The translations under genes were made by a program, and so were the position numbers. Of a stretch of 64,000 nt of DNA, positions 3,960-46,601 are shown one piece after another. The DNA comes from Carboxydocella thermautotrophica (GTDB taxonomy: Bacteria > Bacillota > GCA-003054495 > Carboxydocellales > Carboxydocellaceae), in the NCBI GenBank assembly GCA_003054495.1, contig CP028514.1:1042501-1106500 (forward strand), given 5' to 3'. The notes below the pieces were generated by a model, which had not been told where the DNA came from, searched no databases, and saw nothing but the letters and a program-made list of their open reading frames with translations. The number at the start of each line of letters is the position of its first letter. Positions within the stretch are counted from its first letter, which is position 1.

Positions 3960-3960
3960 A

Positions 3961-3993
3961 GAATGGCCCTGTACATTTTGTACAGGGCCATTC
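3961..3993. terminator. Bidirectional hairpin between convergent operons
   Basis: A perfect 15-bp inverted repeat (GAATGGCCCTGTACA and its complement, 3-nt loop) lies between the end of the molybdoenzyme operon and the end of the minus-strand rsgI-like gene. T-tracts are weak on both sides, so termination efficiency is uncertain, but placement and symmetry fit a shared terminator. Confidence 0.7.
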
Positions 3994-4005
3994 TATTGAG
4001 GCTTA

Positions 4006-5805: not shown

Positions 5806-5835
5806 ATTATACGATAGAATTTAAATTTTTGGGGG
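5806..5835 (-). promoter_or_regulatory. Candidate sigI promoter (autoregulated or sigma-A)
   Basis: Read on the minus strand, ACCCCC is followed after about 17 bases by CGTA, then TATAAT. ACCCCC with a CGWA-like -10 resembles SigI-dependent promoters, which would mean autoregulation; TATAAT at 5806-5811 could also serve sigma-A. The two readings overlap and cannot be separated by eye. Confidence 0.35.
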
Positions 5836-5843
5836 TTAAATTA

Positions 5844-6110
5844 ATGGCAAAACGTTATCGCGGCCAGGGCGGAGTCAGTACAGTCAGGCCTGGAGGCCAT
5901 CCGGAGGAAGTTTTTTTAAAAATAAAAATAGCTCCAGGTTGTATTCGGTACCTGAAAAATATTCTTGAAGGATATGAGCATCTGGCGTTTATGGTACCTT
6001 TAAATGGGCGGGAAGGGATTGTGGCCCTGCATACTACCAGCAGCTTGAAAAACAATTTAATCGCTGTTCTGGAAAACTTACCCTTTCCTGTGGTTTTTCT
6101 CTATGATTAG
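5844..6110 (+). CDS. DUF4911 domain protein
   Basis: An 88-residue protein: a basic N-terminus (MAKRYRGQGG), then VFLKIKIAPGCIRYLKNILEG and LKNNLIAVLENLPFPVVFLYD. The pattern of an iAPxxIxYLkxIlEgYehl segment followed by a hydrophobic end fits the small DUF4911 family of Firmicutes. Function is not known. The start ATG at 5844 is preceded by GGGGG at a spacing of 8; longer upstream frames would run through the divergent sigI promoter region. Confidence 0.6.
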   Translation: MAKRYRGQGGVSTVRPGGHPEEVFLKIKIAPGCIRYLKNILEGYEHLAFMVPLNGREGIVALHTTSSLKNNLIAVLENLPFPVVFLYD

Positions 6111-6211
6111 GAATAGCGAAAAATTATTTTGATATTAGCAGGAAAATCGGCCTGACATAGCGAATTAGCTTATATCAGATTGTTCAGTTAAGTACAAAAG
6201 AGGTGGCCTCG

Positions 6212-7921
6212 ATGTTTAACCGGATGGAACCATGGTTAAGCCCCCTGCCCTTACATAAAGGGGATATGATCGATTATGAATATCGTTATGGTTTCCTCTT
6301 TAGGGGAATGGTAGCAGGGATTACAACTGTTCTGGGCTGGTGGCATACCAATGGCTATGGCTTTTCGCTAGTTGGCGCTTTACTGGTGTTGTTGTTGTTA
6401 AATGTTTTTTATTACCTGGCCTTACGTCAATGTTATCGCATTCGCCTTATCTGGGGTATGCGGCTGTTAATTTCCCTGACCATGTTACTCTGGGTCTGTT
6501 ATGTGACGGTCCTGCCAGGCATGTTAAACTTACAGGCGGCATTGTTGATGGCCGTCTTACTGGAGCTGGCCATGGCCCAACCGGGGCTGATGGAGTTTGT
6601 TTTACTGGGGCTGGGAGGCCATCTGGCCTTTGTGGCAGCCCACTGGTGGCGGGAAGGGAACTTGCTCTTTTATGCGAGTAAAGAGTTCTGGGCCACCATC
6701 ATCGTTGTGTCTTTCTTTTACCTGGGAGTTTTGCTGGTGATTCGACGCACCTGGTGGCCGGAGCGTTTGCTGAATCAAGCGGATAATTATGCCGGTTTTT
6801 TGAACCGAAAATCTTTTATGCAAATGGCAGAAAATAAAATTCAGGAAGCGGAAAAAACGGGTGAAGAGCTGAGCCTGGTTCATATCGATTTGCACGGTTT
6901 GGATGAAATTGCGGCCCGCTACGGGGTAGCTATGACGGAGATATTTTTTCGCACCATCATCCAGGACAATCAACGCCAGCGCTGGGGTATAATGGGGCGA
7001 TGCGGTTATCAGCGCCTGGGTTTGCTGGTGGAAGGAGATTATCAGCAGGCCCGGAACATGGTAGAGAGATTTTTTCAACACCTGCGGGAAAAACACCAAT
7101 TCTTTTTCGGCGAAGAAGATGTCTTTGCCCAGGCGGGACTGGCTTCCTACCCTCAACATGGCCATGCGGTTTTTCAATTGATTGATTATGCTGATCTGGC
7201 CCTGAGCTATGCCGGGCATCAACCCTGGGCCATCCAGGTTTATCATGGACTGGGGGACTGCTGTTCCAATTTGTCAGCACGCCGGTATATAGGCCATCTT
7301 CAGACTTTGCTCAACCGGATTAAGGATTATGATGAAGAACTATACTGGCATTCGGTCAATGTCGCCCAGTATGCCGCTTTTCTGGCCTGCTTGCTGGGAT
7401 TACCTGCTCCAGAGGTCAATCGTATACGCCTGGCCGGTTTACTGCACGATCTGGGCAAAACCAGCTGGAGCAGGGAACTGTTTTTGAAAACGGGGAATTT
7501 AACGGAAAAAGAGTGGCAGGAGATCAAGGAACACCCTCAACTGGGCTGGCAGCTGATTACTGAAACCACTTCCTGGATTCCCGATGAAATCCGATATGGG
7601 GTACTTTATCATCATGAGAATTTTGATGGGAAGGGGTATCCTAAGGGTTTGGCCGGGAAAAATATCCCTCTGGTAGCCAGGATTATTGCTGTGGCTGATG
7701 TCTATGATGCCTTGCGGGAAGAACGGCCTTACCGGCCCAGCAAGAACTTAAGTGAGGCCTTACGGGAATTAAACAGGATGGCCTACCAGCGGCTGGATCC
7801 CTATCTGGTAGAGTGTTTTATCCAGCAAATCAACGGGCTGGAAAAGGATTTGCCGCGCAAACTGACAACGAACACGGTAGAAGAATGGATTCGCATCACA
7901 TTTTGTCATAAAAGTGCTTGA
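6212..7921 (+). CDS. Membrane-bound HD-GYP protein with degenerate GGDEF domain
   Basis: Residues 1 to about 190 hold six or so membrane helices. A GGDEF-like fold follows ([20 protein letters not shown]), but the active-site loop reads CGYQR where GGDEF is expected, so cyclase activity is unlikely. The C-terminal HD-GYP domain is complete: [16 protein letters not shown] (His near 412), and [11 protein letters not shown], followed by [15 protein letters not shown]. This domain hydrolyses cyclic di-GMP in known members. Start ATG 6212 is preceded by AGAGGTGG; a GTG at 6203 is a less likely alternative. The stop codon lies inside the -35 box of the next promoter. Confidence 0.88.
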
Positions 7922-31837: not shown

Positions 31838-33667
31838 TTATTTAGAGAGATGGAAAGGTACAGAACCAATAACCACATCTTTTTTCAGAGTCAGCGAGGC
31901 TTTTAAAATTAACCCGGTCTGATTGTGCAGGAAGAAGTGCCACCATTTGCGGGGAATAAACTCTGGCAAGAGGACTGTGATGATTTCATCAGGACCAGCT
32001 TCCTGTTCCAGTTTTTCTAGGTATTCCACCAGCGGCTGGGTGATTGACCGATAGGGTGAATCTAGAATAACTAAAGGAATATCCGATTCAAAACATTGCC
32101 ATTTTTGCTGCAATTTCTCCAGATTGTGCTCATTGGTATTTACCGTAACTGCTATGATATGCTGACTAATTGAGCGAGCATACTGTACTGTATTGATGAC
32201 AGCCTTGGTAAAGGTACTGACAGGAATGATAACGGTATTTTTTCGAAAGTGTCTTATTTCCACATTACAGGCTGTGGATAAATCCTCTGCTACATCGGCA
32301 TAGTGCCTTTTTATGGCAATGAACAGATAAACCAGTAGAGGTATTAAAATGATGACTATCCAGGCACCAGCAGTAAATTTGGTAGTAGCGATTACTATAG
32401 TAACAATACCGGTAATGATTGCACCGATAGCATTGATTAAAAGATTAAATTGCCAGCCTCTATCCCGGTTTTTTAACCAGTGTTTTACCATGCCAATCTG
32501 GGAGAGAGTAAATGAAAGGAAAACACCAATAGCATACAAGGGAATGAGCAAATGGGTGTCTCCATGAAAAATCAGGACCAGAAAGGCGGCAGCTGCTCCT
32601 AAGAGAATGATTCCATTTGAATATACCAGGCGGTCTCCGCGAATGGTCAGAAAATGAGGCAGAAAACCATCGGCTGCCAGCCGGGAGGCTAACAAAGGCG
32701 CGCCATTATAACTTGTGTTTGCAGCCAGAATTAGTATTAAAGCAGTGCTGGCCTGTAAGAGATAGTAAGCCCAGTTACGCCCTCCGAAAGCAATTTCGGC
32801 GATTTGGGAAACCAGGGTCTCGCCTTTTACAGGTACTACCCCAAATAACTCCGCTAACAGGCTGGTGCCACCGAAAAGAAAAATGGCAATACCGCCTAAT
32901 GCGAACAAAACAATAATAGCATTTCTGGCTTTGGGTTCTTTAAAGGTAGGCACACCATTACTAACTGCCTCTACCCCGGTTAGGGCTGTACAACCACCGG
33001 AAAAGGCGCGCAAAATCGCCAGTAGCCCGAAATTAGCATAAACTGGTTGCAGCTGAGCTGCTGGCATTACAGGTGGGGCACCATAGGTGTAGTAGCGCCA
33101 CAGTCCAGCGAGGATCATAAAAGCCATACTGAAAAGAAATAAATAAGGTGGGTAGGCAAGAATAGTTGAAGCTTCACTAATACCCCTTAGATTAATAACA
33201 GTAAGAAGAAATATAAAGAATATAGCAATATGGACAGTATACGGCAATAATCTGGGGAAGGCAGAGGTAATTGCTGCAGTACCTGAAGAGATGCTAACGG
33301 AAACAGTGAGCAGATAGTCAATTAATAGGGAGGCACCGGCAATTAATCCATAGATTGTACCCAGGTTTTCCTTAGCTACCACATAGGAACCGCCGCCACT
33401 GGTGTAAACTCTGATTACGTGGCGGTAAGATAAAACGACGATCAGAAGTAAAAAGATAATGGCCAGGGAAATTGGTGTCAAATAACCCATGGCCTGAGCG
33501 CCGAATAATGCCAGCACCAGGGTGATTTCTTCGGTGGCATAGGCTACAGAGGATAGAGCATCAGAGGCGTATACGGCCAGAGCTTTTCTTTTAGGCATGG
33601 TTTCATGACTGAGTCGGCTAGTAGGCATAGGGTCACCGACCAGCAGTTTTTTCAAAATACGGTACAT
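31838..33667 (-). CDS. APC-family permease, KimA/YdaO-like potassium transporter
   Basis: A 609-residue protein: about twelve membrane helices (residues 40-480) and a cytoplasmic C-terminal domain (480-609; VIIPVSTFTKAVINTVQYAR, ITVLLPEFIPRKWWH). The start MYRILKKLLVGDPMPTSR and the helix 1 motif YASDALSSVAYATEEITL match the KimA/YdaO subgroup of high-affinity potassium importers. In Bacillus the gene is under a cyclic-di-AMP riboswitch; I see none in the 350 bp upstream here. GGAGGGGG lies before ATG 33667. Confidence 0.88.
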   Translation of the reverse strand: MYRILKKLLVGDPMPTSRLSHETMPKRKALAVYASDALSSVAYATEEITLVLALFGAQAMGYLTPISLAIIFLLLIVVLSYRHVIRVYTSGGGSYVVAKENLGTIYGLIAGASLLIDYLLTVSVSISSGTAAITSAFPRLLPYTVHIAIFFIFLLTVINLRGISEASTILAYPPYLFLFSMAFMILAGLWRYYTYGAPPVMPAAQLQPVYANFGLLAILRAFSGGCTALTGVEAVSNGVPTFKEPKARNAIIVLFALGGIAIFLFGGTSLLAELFGVVPVKGETLVSQIAEIAFGGRNWAYYLLQASTALILILAANTSYNGAPLLASRLAADGFLPHFLTIRGDRLVYSNGIILLGAAAAFLVLIFHGDTHLLIPLYAIGVFLSFTLSQIGMVKHWLKNRDRGWQFNLLINAIGAIITGIVTIVIATTKFTAGAWIVIILIPLLVYLFIAIKRHYADVAEDLSTACNVEIRHFRKNTVIIPVSTFTKAVINTVQYARSISQHIIAVTVNTNEHNLEKLQQKWQCFESDIPLVILDSPYRSITQPLVEYLEKLEQEAGPDEIITVLLPEFIPRKWWHFFLHNQTGLILKASLTLKKDVVIGSVPFHLSK

Positions 33668-33880
33668 ATATCCCCCTCCGAATTTTGTAAACTAAAGAAC
33701 TACAGGAAAAGAATACAACTTTGCAGGTACATATACAAACTTAGTATTGCCCTGATTAAGCTGATTTAAGCCTGTGGCTGGTTATCGCATTAGATTAGCT
33801 CAGGCTGATATGATTATTTATTAACGGTTAAAGAAATATTATACTGTTTAACTTTTATAGAATTAAAGAGAAATGAAAAG

Positions 33881-33910
33881 AAATGACTGTCTGTTTTCAG
33901 ACAGTCATTT
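33881..33910 (+). promoter_or_regulatory. 30-bp perfect palindrome, probable enhancer site for the sigma-54 activator
   Basis: Arms of 13 bp (AAATGACTGTCTG and its exact complement) around TTTT. It lies between divergent genes, where no transcript needs to end, about 57 bp upstream of the -24/-12 promoter (centre near -97 from the expected start). This is the usual distance for an NtrC-family upstream activating sequence, and a sigma-54 activator is the last gene of the operon. A terminator role is possible by shape, but does not fit the position. Confidence 0.65.
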
Positions 33911-33965
33911 TGTTTGTTTTTATACACTAGCCCAACAAGAGCCTAATCGAACCAGGTACAACCCC

Positions 33966-33981
33966 TGGCATGCAAATTGCA
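33966..33981 (+). promoter_or_regulatory. Sigma-54 (-24/-12) promoter of the export/two-component operon
   Basis: TGGCAT-GCAAA-TTGCA matches the RpoN consensus TGGCAC-N5-TTGCA with one mismatch; GG (33967-33968) and GC (33979-33980) have the required 10-bp spacing. It lies about 42 bp before the GTG start at 34024. Confidence 0.8.
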
Positions 33982-34023
33982 ATATAAAGAAATGAAAAAA
34001 TAAACGAGGGGGTTTAGAGATAA

Positions 34024-35639
34024 GTGAAGAAAGGAAAGTTGGCTTTAATCATCGGTATCAGTCTACTGGTAGTGGCAGGAGCGGCCTGGGGCTGGCTGGG
34101 CCGCAACAAAACAGCTGCCACCAGCCAGCAGGCAAGCATCGCTGTCCGGAAAGGCGAGTTACAAGTTACCATCAGCGGTAATGGCACCATTCAACCGGCA
34201 GCCAGTAAGAGTATTACCACGGCGGTCAGCGGGAAAATCAGCAGTATCAATTTCCAGAATGGTCAGCAGGTAAAAGCAGGGGACCTTTTGTTCACCATCA
34301 CTGCCGATAGTCTGGCGTATGACCTGGCCCGCAGCCGCCTGGAACTAAAACAGGCGGAGCTGGAACTGGCCAACCTGAAAACCCAGCAACGGCAGCTGCA
34401 GATCACAGCTCCGGTCAGCGGATATGTGACAGGAGTTCAGGTAAGTACTGGACAGGAAATACAAAAAGGCATGACGTTATTGACTATTGAAGATCGCAGT
34501 AAACTGAAAACAAAAATATCCTTTAATGAAGCTCAGATTAACCAGATAAAGGTGGGGCAAAAAGCTGAAGTTACAGTTACCGATCTATTTACTACTTTAA
34601 CAGGAACCGTAACCGAAGTCGACCGTAATGGTCGGGCCGATAGCAATGGCGCCAAACTCTATGATGTTACAGTTGAAATTACCAATCCAGGCTCTCTGTC
34701 CCCTGGAATGAAAACCCAGGTAACGGTTCAGACTGCGGCTGGAACGGAAACCGGATTGTCTGCCGGTACACTGGCCTGGGCTGATACCACTACCGTGAGG
34801 GCCTTAACCGGTGAGACGGTAACTAAACTGCTAGTGGATGAAAACAGCTATGTGCGGAAAGGACAGCTTTTGGTCAGCCTCAGCAATGACTCACTGGTTT
34901 CCCAGATCGCCAGTCAGGAATTGCGGGTAGAACAAGCCCGCCTGGCTTTGGCACAAGTGGAACAGCAACAGGCGGAAACGAAAATATACGCTCCCTGGGA
35001 CGGAATTGTTTATTTAAGTCAGGCTAGTAGCACTTTAAGTGGAAGCAGCAATAACAGCTCTGCCACAACCAGTGCCAGCAATAATGGTAGTGGTAACTTG
35101 CAGGTTGGAGATGAGGTGAAAAGCGGGCAAATCCTAGCTACCCTGCTTAGCCCCAGCTTGCAGGTGGTAGTACCGGTAGATGAAACGGATATCGGCAAAA
35201 TCTATACCGGTCAGAAAGCCGAAATCACTGTGGATGCCTATCCAGAGCGGAAATTTGCCGGCACTGTGACGGAAATTGCCGCTCAGGGTACGGTGCAGAA
35301 CAAAGTGGCAAGTTTTGACGTGACTCTGGTCCTGGATGATACTACCGGGTTAAAAGCAGGGATGACTGCCAATGTGGAAATCCTGGTTGAGGATAAAAAG
35401 GATGCCCTGATGTTGCCAATTGAAGCTATCATCGAACGGGGCGACAGGAAGTTTGTCCGGACTGAGGCTGGCAGCTTGCAAGCGGTGGAAACAGGTCTGT
35501 ATAATGAAACCATGATTGAAATCAAAAGCGGGCTGAAGGAAGGAGACCGGGTGGTCTTGCCAGAGGTAGTACGCAAGAACAATAGTAATCAGCAACCCCG
35601 CTTCCCGGGTGCTGGTGGGCCTCCGGGAGGGATGAGATA

Positions 35640-35640
<1 letters not shown>
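34024..35640 (+). CDS. MacA-like membrane fusion protein
   Basis: A 538-residue adaptor with an N-terminal membrane anchor (KLALIIGISLLVVAGAAWGW), two biotinyl-lipoyl-like parts (GKISSINFQNGQQVKAGD near 80; KLLVDENSYVRKGQLLVSL near 265), a short coiled coil and beta-barrel segments. A Ser/Asn/Gly-rich insertion (TLSGSSNNSSATTSASNNGS) sits near residues 338-357 inside the second lipoyl-like domain. It is longer than usual MacA (about 370) because this module is duplicated. It works with the MacB pair encoded next. Start is GTG; GGGGG lies upstream. Confidence 0.87.
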
Positions 35641-36313
<673 letters not shown>

Positions 36314-36317
<4 letters not shown>

Positions 36318-37483
36318 GTAACTGGCAAATTATCAAACTGGCCTGGGCAGGGATCAAGGCCAATAAGCTGCGCTCCTTCCTCACCATGCTGGGAGTTATT
36401 ATCGGGGTGGCAGCCGTGATTATCCTGGTTTCCATTGCTCAAGGTACCAGCCAGTCGGTTACCGGCCGGATTCAGGGCCTGGGTTCAAACCTGGTCAGTG
36501 TTTCCTTACGGTCCAGTGAAATTGATGATACGCTAACCTACGAAGAAGTATTAAAGTGGCAGGAACGTCCCGGAGTTAAGGGTGTGGCCCCGGTGCTCAA
36601 TGGCAACGTTACTGTTAAATATGGCAATAAAAAATATGATACTTCCCTGGAGGGTGTAACTCCTGAATATGAAGAAGTACGTAACTTTCACACCCAGCGG
36701 GGACGGTTTCTGCTTGACTCCGATGTTAGCTTGCGCCAGCGGGTGGCCCTGGTTGGTACTGAGGTGGCCAAAGAATTGTTTGGTCAAACCAATCCGGTTG
36801 GTAAAACCATCAAAATCAATGGCGAAAATTTTGTTGTAGTCGGATTGCTGGAGGAAAAAGGGGCTGCTTCCTTTGGTTCCAATGACGATAAAGTAATGAT
36901 ACCTCTGAGTACGGCTGAACGCCTGCTCAATACCAGAGGAATTCGCTTTGTTTATGTTCAGGCTACCAGCCCTGAAGATGTAGACGGGGTAGTGGCCCAG
37001 CTGGATAATTTACTTTATCGTAAGCTTAAAAATACCGATGCTTATCGGGTTTTTAGCCAGGCAGAAATGCTTTCCACCGTAAGTCAGGTTACTGGAATGC
37101 TTACCCTGATGCTGGGGGGAATAGCTGGAATCTCCCTGCTAGTAGGGGGTATCGGCATAATGAACATTATGCTGGTAACCGTGACGGAGCGGACCAGGGA
37201 AATCGGGATCCGTAAAGCTATCGGAGCCAGACGGCGGGATATTCTGCGGCAGTTTCTAATTGAGGCCCTGGTAGTGAGTGGAGCAGGTGGTCTCTTTGGA
37301 ATAGTGCTGGGTGTTGCTGGTTCCAAACTGCTTAATCAGTTTCTTGGTGTTAGCGCTGCTATTTCCTGGCAGATAATCGGTATCGCTTTTGGTTTTGCCT
37401 TGCTGGTAGGGGTTATTTTTGGAATCTATCCGGCCAACAAAGCGGCCAAACTCAATCCCATCGAGGCCCTGCGTTATCAGTAA
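36314..37483 (+). CDS. MacB-type permease (FtsX fold)
   Basis: A 389-residue membrane protein: helix 1 near 20-40 (LTMLGVIIGVAAVIILVSIA), a large MacB_PCD extracellular domain (about 45-235) and three C-terminal helices with the FtsX motif VTERTREIGIRKAIGARRRDIL. With the previous two genes it forms a mechanotransmission-type exporter. Substrate unknown; peptides, antibiotics or lipoproteins are known for the family. Confidence 0.93.
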
Positions 37484-37498
37484 GAAGAGGTGGCAAAC

Positions 37499-38980
37499 TT
37501 GCGCAGAAAGTTTAACCAATCCCTGGTATTTCAGATGGGCACCATTCTGGGCAGTGTATTGACCCTGCTGATCTTTACCCTGGTTTCCCTGCACGTGGTG
37601 GCGGGTCGCTACAATGAGGAAATTCTGCAGGATAAGAAGGAAAAGCTGGAGGTAGCAGGCCAAAGCCTGCAGAGGGGGCTGGTTAGTCAACTGGAAAAGG
37701 GTACCTCGGCTGAACTGATCAAAACTTACTTTGAGGAACAGGCCGGACGGCTGACAGAAAGCAATCCGCGGGTAGTAGTGGCTCTTTCCCTGCCCCGGCT
37801 GGGATCAAACCTGATTTTCAGTCAGCCGGTACAGGGAGAAAAATATATTTTCTTTCCTCCCCCGGGCCGCCCCCCGGGAGAACCTGGATTCTTCGGGATT
37901 AAGCCGGAAGAACTGCAACAACCCCGCACTGTGGTCAGAGATGGACCAGGCGGTGTATTAATTGCCAGTGCTTATCCGATTTCAGCCCGAGGCCAGCGGC
38001 AGGGAACATTGCTGGTGGTAGAAAGGGTTCAGGAGGGTTTTAACCTGGTCAGAACCGGAATCAGGATTGTATCAATCCTGATTCCCCTTTCGGCTTTAAT
38101 CGGTGTTCTGGCTACCTTCTGGCTATTGAACCGTATGAAACAACGGGTTCGGGAGATAACCGCCGGCCTGGAGCAATTATCCCAGGATTCTTCCTATCGG
38201 CTGCCGGTAAAGGGCAATGATGAGCTGGGGGAAATTGCAGCTGCCATCAATCAGCTGGCCAATGCAGTGGAAGAGAAAAAGTTGCTGGAGGAGCAGCTGG
38301 CCCAGAATGACCGCCTGGCTGCTCTCGGTCGCCTGGTGGCCGGGGTGGCCCATGAAATCCGTAATCCCCTGGGCATAATGAAAACCACTTTACAGGTAAT
38401 GCGGGAGGAATTTGCGGACCAGGGGGAGTTGCAGGAATATTTGCAGGTATTGCAGGAACAGGTAGAACGGCAAAATAAAACCGTGCAAGAGTTTCTGGCT
38501 TATGCCAGACCGGTGCCACCGGTGATACAGCCGCTTAATGTAAATAGTGTCATTGATTCCGTTTTGTATCTGGCCGGTCCCTATATCCAGAGACAACAGG
38601 TCATGGTAAAAACTGCTCTGGAGCCAGAATTACCTCGGGTTGCCGGTGATGGAGAGAAATTGAAACAGGTTTTTCTCAATCTGGTTTTAAATGCAGTTGA
38701 AGCCATGCCCGATGGCGGAGAATTGAATATTAGTAGTTATCAGGAAGAGAACTGGGTGATAGTGCAATTTGCTGATACCGGGCCGGGGATAGCCGAAGAG
38801 GATTTAACCCGGGTGTTTGAGCCTTTCTATACCACCAAACCCGGGGGTATGGGGCTGGGGTTGGCCCTGGCCTATAAAATGATAGAACAGCAAAGGGGAC
38901 TGATTGAAGTTAAAAGCAGCAGGGGAGCGGGAACGATTTTTCGCGTCAAGCTGCCTCTGGCCGGGCAAAGGGGGTGCTGA
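37499..38980 (+). CDS. Membrane sensor histidine kinase
   Basis: About 493 residues: helix near 10-33, an extracellular sensor part with a proline-rich stretch ([16 protein letters not shown]), a second helix near 185-205, HAMP ([18 protein letters not shown]), the dimerisation domain with [17 protein letters not shown] (phosphorylated His) and an ATPase domain ([45 protein letters not shown]). This is the NtrB/ZraS-like class that pairs with sigma-54 activators, here the next gene. TTG 37499 is favoured by AGAGGTGG 7 bases before it; GTG 37490 is the alternative. Confidence 0.9.
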
Positions 38981-38981
38981 G

Positions 38982-40328
38982 ATGGCAGCGACGATACTGG
39001 TTATCGATGATGAGGAGCATTTGCGCTGGATATTGAGCAAGGCATTGAACAAAACAGGTTACCGGGTTCTGACGGCCGCAACCGGACAGGAAGGCCTGAA
39101 GCTGGTCAGTGAACAAATGCCTGACCTGGTATTACTGGATTTGCGCTTACCGGACCTGGATGGGATAACAATTTTAAAGACCATTAAAAAAGACCAGCCC
39201 CAGCTGCCAGTCATTGTCATCACTGCCCACGGGACAGTGGAAACGGCCATCGAGGCTATGAAAACCGGGGCTGTTGATTACCTGACCAAGCCCTTTGACC
39301 TGGATGAGCTAAAACTTGTAATTGAACGCACCCTGACACTGGTGGAACTAAGCCAGGAAGTGGATTATTTGCGGGGAGAGCTGCGGGAACGGCAGGGGGA
39401 GGGCCTAATTGGCCAAAGTCCCTCTATGGTGGAAATTCGTGAGCTGATAGGTCGTATTGCCGATACGGCAGCCACGGTGCTGATCCAGGGGGAAAGCGGT
39501 ACAGGCAAGGAAGTGGTGGCCCGGCAGCTGCATCTGCAGAGCAGTCGTGCCAATAAACCCTTTGTAGCCATTAACTGTGCTGCCATTCCGGAAAATTTGC
39601 TGGAAAGCGAACTGTTTGGCCATGAACGGGGGGCTTTTACAGGAGCCAATGCCAGAAAGAAGGGGAAACTGGAACTGGTACGAGGGGGTACTCTGTTTCT
39701 GGATGAAATCGGGGAAATGCCGCTGACCCTGCAGGCCAAACTGTTAAGAGTGCTGCAGGAACGAACTTATGAGCGGGTAGGTGGCACAGAGCCCTTGAAA
39801 CTGGAAGCCCGCATTATTGCCGCTACCAACCGTGACTTGCGTAAAGCTATTCAGGAAGGCAAATTCCGGGAAGACTTGTACTATCGTCTGCAGGTTATTC
39901 CTATTCACTTACCCCCTTTACGGGAACGGCGGGAGGATATACCTTTACTGGTACAGCACTTTTTGCGCAAGTATGATCCCGGGAAAAGGCTAAAAGGGGT
40001 TGCCCCGGAAGCGATGGCCTTATTGCAACAATACCACTGGCCCGGCAACATCAGGGAGCTGGAAAACACTATCGAGCGAGCGGTAATCCTTTGTACGGGC
40101 CATGAAATCACACCGGAGAATCTGCCCCGGGAAATAAGCGGAGATAAGCAACGGGTAGCTGGAGTTTTACTGGATTTTCCCCCGGAGGGTATCAATCTGG
40201 AAGAAGTAGAACGGGAGTTAATCCGACTGGCTCTGGTCAGAAGTGGTGGCAATCAGACTCAGGCTGCCCGTTTACTGGGAATAACCCGTTCGGCCTTAAT
40301 CTATCGTATGGAGAAATACGGGTTGTAA
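38982..40328 (+). CDS. Sigma-54-dependent response regulator (NtrC family)
   Basis: A 448-residue protein: receiver domain ([15 protein letters not shown], phosphorylated Asp in [10 protein letters not shown], conserved Lys in [11 protein letters not shown]), AAA+ domain (GESGTGKE, sigma-54-contacting [15 protein letters not shown], and [14 protein letters not shown]) and a C-terminal Fis-type helix-turn-helix ([21 protein letters not shown]). It is coded directly after its kinase. The sigma-54 promoter and palindrome ahead of this operon are its likely target, giving a self-reinforcing circuit. Confidence 0.95.
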
Positions 40329-40338
40329 CTTGGTAAGA

Positions 40339-40367
40339 GGTTGCCATTTCGGCAGCCTTTATTTTTT
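40339..40367 (+). terminator. Terminator of the sigma-54 operon
   Basis: Stem GGTTGCC/GGCAGCC (one G-U pair) followed by TTTATTTTTTG. Confidence 0.8.
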
Positions 40368-45653: not shown

Positions 45654-46601
45654 TTGTGGAAAAATTTCGTTGACTGGCTGGTTTTTCAGCAAATGGGCCT
45701 AAAAGCCGATAGCGCGCTGGGGCAAGCAGTGCATTTTTTTATCTATGATACTGTCAAAATTTTTGTTTTACTGGCGGTGGTTATCTACCTGATCTCCTAT
45801 TTGCGTTCCTATTTCCCGCCGGAAAGGACGAAAAAATATTTAAGCGGTAGTCGCCTCTTTGGCGGCAACATCCTGGCTGCTTTGCTGGGAATTGTCACTC
45901 CCTTTTGCTCCTGTTCAGCAGTACCCATGTTTATTGGCTTTGTTGAAGCCGGGGTTCCCCTGGGGGTTACTTTTTCATTCCTGATTGCTTCCCCCATGGT
46001 GAATGAGGTGGCACTGGCTTTGCTCTTCGGTCTGTTTGGCTGGAAAATCGCTTTTACTTACCTGGCGGCAGGTTTGACGGTCGCTATCATCAGTGGGATA
46101 GTTATCGGCAAGCTGGGCCTGGAAAGCTGGGTGCAGGATTATGTTTATCAGATTCGGGTCGGGCAGCAGGAAATAAAGGAAATGAGCCAGCAGGAAAGGC
46201 ACCAGTATGCGCTGGGGTATGTCAAAGACATTATTCGCAAAGTCTGGCTTTATATTCTGGTGGCTATTGCCATCGGAGCCTGGATGCACGGGTATGTACC
46301 CCAGGACTTTCTCCTGCGCTATGCCGGGCCCGGCCACTGGTATGCGGTGCCGCTGGCGGTGCTGGTCGGGATTCCCCTCTATTCCAATGCCGCCGGGATT
46401 ATTCCCCTGGTTAGCGTTTTCCTGGAAAAAGGGATGGCTTTAGGGACGGTACTGGCTTTTATGATGGCAGTAACTGCTCTCAGTTTGCCGGAGATGATTA
46501 TCCTGAAACAAGTGCTGAAGCCCAGATTGATCGCGCTATTTGTGGCAATTGTGGGCAGCGGGATTTTGCTGGTGGGTTATCTCTTTAACTGGTTATGGTA
46601 G
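45654..46601 (+). CDS. UPF0718-like permease
   Basis: A 315-residue protein with eight or so helices in two halves. The motif TPFCSCSAVPMFIGFVEAGV and ASPMVNEVALALLFGLFG are the signature of the DUF318/UPF0718 permease family, seen with arsenic and metal resistance or redox proteins; in the second half GIPLYSNAAGIIPLVSVFLEKG mirrors it. The thioredoxin-like gene 18 bp downstream is a common partner. Start is TTG 45654 after AAGGTGAGG; GTG 45645 is possible. Substrate unknown. Confidence 0.82.
   Translation: MWKNFVDWLVFQQMGLKADSALGQAVHFFIYDTVKIFVLLAVVIYLISYLRSYFPPERTKKYLSGSRLFGGNILAALLGIVTPFCSCSAVPMFIGFVEAGVPLGVTFSFLIASPMVNEVALALLFGLFGWKIAFTYLAAGLTVAIISGIVIGKLGLESWVQDYVYQIRVGQQEIKEMSQQERHQYALGYVKDIIRKVWLYILVAIAIGAWMHGYVPQDFLLRYAGPGHWYAVPLAVLVGIPLYSNAAGIIPLVSVFLEKGMALGTVLAFMMAVTALSLPEMIILKQVLKPRLIALFVAIVGSGILLVGYLFNWLW

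Follow-up and report, generated by a model that had tools for sequence, protein, structure and literature searches.

A candidate self-activated, sigma-54-dependent operon for a MacAB-type exporter in Carboxydocella thermautotrophica

Introduction

How is the MacAB-type exporter operon in the DNA analyzed here (64,000 nucleotides of the C. thermautotrophica genome, hereafter the window) controlled, and is the palindrome upstream of its promoter the site of the NtrC-type regulator that the operon itself encodes? Activators of the NtrC type are phosphorylated by a kinase, bind DNA, reach the promoter by DNA looping and drive its opening with ATP. In the ZraSR and AtoSC systems of Escherichia coli, a membrane kinase is combined with a regulator composed of receiver, AAA+ and Fis domains, and paired sites lie upstream of a -24/-12 promoter.

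The sigma-54 regulons of 57 Clostridiales species, with Carboxydocella among the genera, were assigned to 39 activator groups (Nie et al., 2019; PMC6615313). According to passages of that study, the targets have upstream sites, often multiple per operon and many of them TGT...ACA inverted repeats, the regulons serve mainly fermentation and amino-acid catabolism, and two-component regulators make up ~10% of those activators that have an N-terminal domain (PMC6615313). TGT/ACA sites and many sigma-54 response regulators are also described in passages on Desulfovibrio (PMC4641369, PMC3333781).

Results and Discussion

The operon and its products

Pfam confirmed each of the five products that the original prediction had placed at 34024-40328, i.e., a MacA, a MacB ATPase, a permease, a histidine kinase and an NtrC-type regulator (Table 1). 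The adaptor, the MacB_PCD/FtsX permease and the MacB-like ATPase together identify an exporter of the MacAB type. Because the NCBIfam equivalog cut-offs were missed (83 of 342 bits for MacA; 292 and 233 vs. 966 bits for MacB), and because the ATPase and permease are separate genes here but fused in E. coli MacB, the exporter is, as judged from its sequence, MacAB-type rather than orthologous MacAB.

Table 1. Features of the exporter operon and of its upstream region (positions in the window).
Feature	Positions	Strand	Basis
Perfect palindrome, 13-bp arms and 4-bp spacer (13+4+13), holding the main dyad	33881-33910	none	Direct reading
Main candidate activator dyad, TGTCTGTTTTCAGACA	33888-33903	none	Kept upstream of macA in relatives
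Weak second candidate dyad, TGTTTGTTTTTATACA, 3 mismatches	33911-33926	none	Spacing as in the pairs of relatives
Predicted sigma-54 (-24/-12) promoter, TGGCATGCAAATTGCA	33966-33981	+	Direct reading; kept in relatives
Ribosome-binding site GAGGGGG before the macA GTG start	34006-34012	+	Direct reading
MacA-like membrane-fusion adaptor	34024-35640	+	Pfam HlyD_3, HlyD_D23; NCBIfam RND_mfp above cut-off
MacB-like ABC ATPase	35640-36317	+	Pfam ABC_tran
MacB-like permease	36314-37483	+	Pfam MacB_PCD, FtsX
Membrane sensor histidine kinase	37490-38980	+	Pfam HAMP, HisKA, HATPase_c
NtrC-type response regulator: receiver, AAA+ with GAFTGA, Fis-type HTH	38982-40328	+	Pfam; helix alignment, tree
Terminator-like hairpin closing the operon	40336-40360	+	Terminator scan

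The regulator, whose ATG lies one base past the kinase stop, has the full domain set of an NtrC-type sigma-54 activator (Table 1); the regulator query used in the searches carried one extra leading residue. The kinase and regulator share the organization of ZraSR and AtoSC, which were also their best-scoring curated families, at scores below the NCBIfam equivalog cut-offs (AtoC, 542/714; ZraR, 451/760; AtoS, 310/646; ZraS, 211/479 bits). The extracytoplasmic sensor of the kinase gave no match in Pfam and PDB profile searches, and is predicted to be a PAS/Cache-like domain from an AlphaFold model that was built with only two sequences (mean pLDDT of 73). As the Foldseek matches of this sensor (WalK, CitA and chemoreceptor Cache domains) are weak, with E-values no better than 1.6e-3, we name no ligand for it.

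The promoter and the palindrome

The original prediction had called a sigma-54 promoter with exact GG-N10-GC spacing ahead of macA, and the site was read there with GG at 33967-68, GC at 33979-80 and 10 bp between them; transcription from it is predicted to start near 33992. Such sites are enriched in this DNA. TGGCAY-N5-TTGCW was found twice in the window vs. 0.24 times expected from shuffles, the other copy lying within a coding frame at 46009, and TGGCACG-N4-TTGCW with up to one mismatch matched 28 times in the whole genome vs. four times for the reversed control. The genome (2.74 Mb, 99.6% complete) has a single rpoN and approximately 18 strong sigma-54 activator domains.

The palindrome reads AAATGACTGTCTG-TTTT-CAGACAGTCATTT. 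It is perfect and has the 13-bp arms that had been claimed for it, but it ends 55 bp, not 57 bp, before the promoter. Its inner 24-mer has no second match in the genome when up to three mismatches are allowed, and its core is a 16-bp dyad, TGTCTG-N4-CAGACA, centered at approximately -96 from the predicted start. The weak second dyad starts 23 bp after the first and is centered at -73 in the window species; the same 16-mer also stands before the kinase gene in another locus (L261). Upstream, on the other strand, an amino-acid permease gene starts at 33667.

Taken alone, the palindrome is ambiguous because a terminator finder also scored it as terminator-like, on both strands. Its hairpin is stable (z of -5.9), and a GC-containing hairpin with a T-tract, as in an intrinsic terminator, is found here in the window only. 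It is the relatives that decide. As a bare hairpin the palindrome does not stand out, for the window has four more perfect hairpins with 12- to 16-bp arms; the one at 3960-3994, with 16-bp arms (AGAATGGCCCTGTACA and TGTACAGGGCCATTCT) and a 3-nt loop, is the longest perfect inverted repeat of the window.

Conservation of the site, promoter and gene order

A search for macA in 398 genomes of the phylum gave 42 oriented loci for comparison, 41 of them distinct. The class to which the window genome belongs has four genomes in the collection, and the contig sequence of L035 is the same as L156 of genome G013. The kinase and regulator follow macAB in five of the 41, i.e., L154 of the window species, L155, L160, L176 and L034. 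The contig of L034 ends within the kinase, and another contig of the same genome (L265) starts within a kinase, which the regulator follows. Each of the five loci has two elements within ~250 bp before macA: a sigma-54 site (0-2 mismatches) and one or more TGTCTG-N4-CAGACA dyads (likewise 0-2 mismatches). This combination is absent from the remaining 36 distinct macAB loci, although for some of these the sequence compared reaches only a little past the permease, and a kinase-regulator pair may lie farther on. A split of five vs. 36 would arise by chance with a probability of ~1e-6 if the loci were independent, a value that is only illustrative because the loci are related by descent and the association counts are not independent.

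A search with the kinase as query added two macAB-kinase-regulator operons, L248 (genome G035) and L260 (G278, of another family), with both the sigma-54 site and dyads before macA, and a second copy in G283 (L249), in which the macA start lies off the contig. In total, six such operons outside the window species have a sigma-54 site and one or two dyads upstream. Shuffled copies of these stretches gave the promoter-dyad composite only six times in 5.46 Mb. Paired dyads start 20-23 bp apart, approximately two helical turns, and fall within the range that is usual for activator sites. In relatives, the dyad centers precede the predicted start by ~87 to 132 bp. The pair of L176 consists of two identical exact copies of TGTCTGATATCAGACA; in L248, a single good dyad is preceded at 21 bp by a degenerate TGGCTGTTTTTGAACA.

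These comparisons show that the arrangement of site, promoter and gene order is real and conserved, albeit made of familiar parts. When the palindrome was sought upstream of macA in relatives, as had been proposed, the 16-bp dyad and the -24/-12 site were found to be kept and the 30-bp palindrome was not, its outer arms being confined to the window species. By sequence comparison, what is conserved is thus the 16-bp dyad, which mostly comes in tandem pairs, and not the palindrome.

The reading that was considered first, that the palindrome merely terminates transcription in both directions, as an intrinsic terminator separating two divergent genes, and lies ahead of a sigma-54 promoter by coincidence, was rejected on these comparative grounds. 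The terminator-like score, the stable hairpin, and the extended arms and following T-rich stretch of the window species speak for it. At the same place in relatives, however, the hairpin arms and T-tract are not preserved and only the 6-bp half-sites are kept, also where the arms are short; T content after the dyads varies, and several copies have no T-tract. Nor would a terminator account for the tandem spacing of the dyads, or for the shift of the dyad with the recognition helix described below, and on the + strand no gene ends just upstream of the palindrome. We consider this reading improbable, including its milder form in which an activator site also ends stray transcripts.

Equally improbable is that an unseen sigma-A promoter mainly drives the operon and that sigma-54 control is minor or vestigial. 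Some basal transcription is needed by any self-activated operon, and weak sigma-70-like matches do occur within this one (e.g., at 35476-35505), but their number, 10 vs. 6.6 expected on both strands, is not clearly above chance. The promoter scan matched no sigma-70-like promoter in 33500-34100, and the sigma-54 site and dyads are kept across families. A sigma-54 promoter with an upstream activator site is the reading that we follow below.

The regulator and its dyad

The exact dyad has a single occurrence in each of the two genomes of the window species. In G111, the exact matches are the two members of the tandem pair ahead of macA, and G283 has just one, also ahead of macA. Among dyads with up to one mismatch in the window genome, the macA one alone is near a listed sigma-54-like site. 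A wider regulon in this genome was considered and set aside, as the other such dyads are not near sigma-54-like sites at the thresholds used. Given that there is a single exact dyad and no other near-dyad beside a sigma-54-like site, the operon that encodes the regulator is probably also its main target. Fourteen of the dyads with up to one mismatch are one and the same 16-mer, TGTCTGGCTATAGACA, which has 14 copies in the window genome (one around position 1501 of L208 and 13 more) and none in the same-species draft genome; the copy that was read sits in an apparent TnpB-like transposon gene.

The kinase-regulator pair is not restricted to macAB loci. In other families it was found without macAB, often next to a divergently oriented gene with a separate -24/-12 site on the other strand, and the dyads track the adjacent pair in these loci too. 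Such divergent loci were seen among L252-L264, which belong to other Bacillota_B genomes. Judged by their translations, the products of the divergent genes are TauE/SafE-like exporters, a SulP-type transporter accompanied by a CBS-domain protein, and proteins of unknown kind.

The type of dyad changes with the recognition helix of the regulator. TGTCTG-type dyads (up to three mismatches) occur in 14 of 15 loci whose regulators have a [T]RSAL helix and in none of five RPTL-type loci, and four of these five (L258, L262, L263 and L264) have TGTAGC-N4-GCTACA dyads instead. The regulators of the four form one clade (support 100/100), which points to one evolutionary change and not four. The tree places the window regulator in a macAB clade of five members with full support, and those of L176/L248 and L260 branch apart from it. 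The divergent regulators of L266, L267, L268 and L271 have no TGT...ACA dyad of such kind in the checked stretches; neither dyad type was found in the first three, and none in the stretch checked of L271. The helix of the regulator thus predicts its dyad, and the sequences point to a possible specificity code, RSAL for TGTCTG and RPTL for TGTAGC.

Binding of the dyads by a different sigma-54 activator, or by an unrelated regulator, is very unlikely, and the least likely of the alternatives: TGT...ACA sites are common in Clostridiales and Desulfovibrio according to passages of earlier studies (PMC6615313; PMC4641369), but the dyads accompany the adjacent kinase-regulator pair with or without macAB and change with its helix, and the recognition helices of the other sigma-54 activators of the genome differ.

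We therefore consider it highly probable that the palindrome holds the upstream activator site of the operon's own NtrC-type regulator, and that the operon encodes a positively autoregulated, sigma-54-dependent MacAB-type exporter. The self-activating circuit of the original prediction is supported by the conservation of the dyad and the -24/-12 site, the absence of this combination from the other macAB loci and the helix-dyad match. Direct observations are the sequence elements and their conservation, the fact that they go together with the kinase-regulator pair, and the correspondence of dyad and helix. Counting against the proposal are the weak second dyad with its three mismatches, the terminator-like nature of the palindrome, the shared ancestry of the loci and the restriction of the helix change to a single clade.

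Proposed mechanism

We infer binding, activation and feedback by analogy with established NtrC-type activators. A signal outside the membrane would lead the kinase to phosphorylate the regulator, which would oligomerize on the TGTCTG-N4-CAGACA dyads ~75-100 bp upstream of the start. DNA looping would then bring the regulator into contact with the RNA polymerase-sigma54 complex held at -24/-12, and ATP hydrolysis by the regulator would open the promoter. The output would be the MacA-ATPase-permease exporter together with more kinase and regulator, i.e., a positive feedback loop on this one operon. Its role may be export triggered by envelope damage or by a toxic or peptide substrate. Envelope stress is a plausible guess for the signal.

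Relation to known systems

The closest likenesses differ from this locus in one or another component. Here, in contrast to ZraSR and AtoSC, the target is a MacAB-type exporter in the same operon and the site is TGTCTG-N4-CAGACA. The Clostridiales regulons follow the same logic, with the activator gene beside its target, but the 39 activator groups as given in the main text include no MacAB or efflux target (PMC6615313). XptB (sulT) and XhpR (hyp-memP) of those regulons may, as a guess, be the sulfur-transporter branch seen here. Word searches of the Desulfovibrio studies found no MacAB target (PMC4641369, PMC3333781). A survey of 2025 reported, as a statistical prediction, an enrichment of MacB/FtsX-type permeases behind sigma-54 promoters, which it called a first (PMC12316311). 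The permease class is the same as that predicted here, but its groups are Gammaproteobacteria, Opitutia and Bacteroidia, not Bacillota, and the relevant passages name neither activator nor site (PMC12316311).

Other macAB operons of the phylum (e.g., L035 of Thermincola ferriacetica) have a homologous adaptor, ATPase and permease (45-69% identity), but their upstream regulator reads as OmpR-like and no sigma-54 site or dyad precedes macA. A literature search that paired MacAB with sigma-54 activators found none. The logic is thus that of known sigma-54 two-component loops, whereas the literature searched gave no description of a MacAB target in Bacillota, of an operon that combines all these genes, or of the contrast with OmpR-type control.

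With this locus, the known targets of sigma-54 in Bacillota would come to include a MacAB-type exporter, for which a candidate activator and site can be named. OmpR-type and NtrC-type regulators, which are of unrelated classes, on homologous exporters make a clear case for studies of regulator replacement, and the match of helix to half-site offers a directly testable specificity rule for the Fis-type domains of sigma-54 activators. More broadly, we give about even chances to the proposal that the kinase-regulator pair is a transferable sigma-54 cassette in Bacillota_B, which has been joined to more than one kind of exporter (to MacAB within one operon; to TauE/SafE-like and SulP-like transporters in divergent orientation), with replacement of an OmpR-type regulator and a helix code that sets the DNA site.

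Two further observations were made. Both operons of G283 have an extra gene between the permease and the kinase (5831-6595 of oriented L155 and 2213-2767 of L249), encoding 254 and 184 amino acids with one apparent membrane helix each; the 254-residue product had no NCBIfam match. In the window genome, a sigma-54-like site follows many sigma-54 activator genes within ~1 kb, for example near genome positions 594200, 885050, 1031624, 1416759 and 2423331, and pairs of neighboring activators and targets could be read off the genome from such sites.
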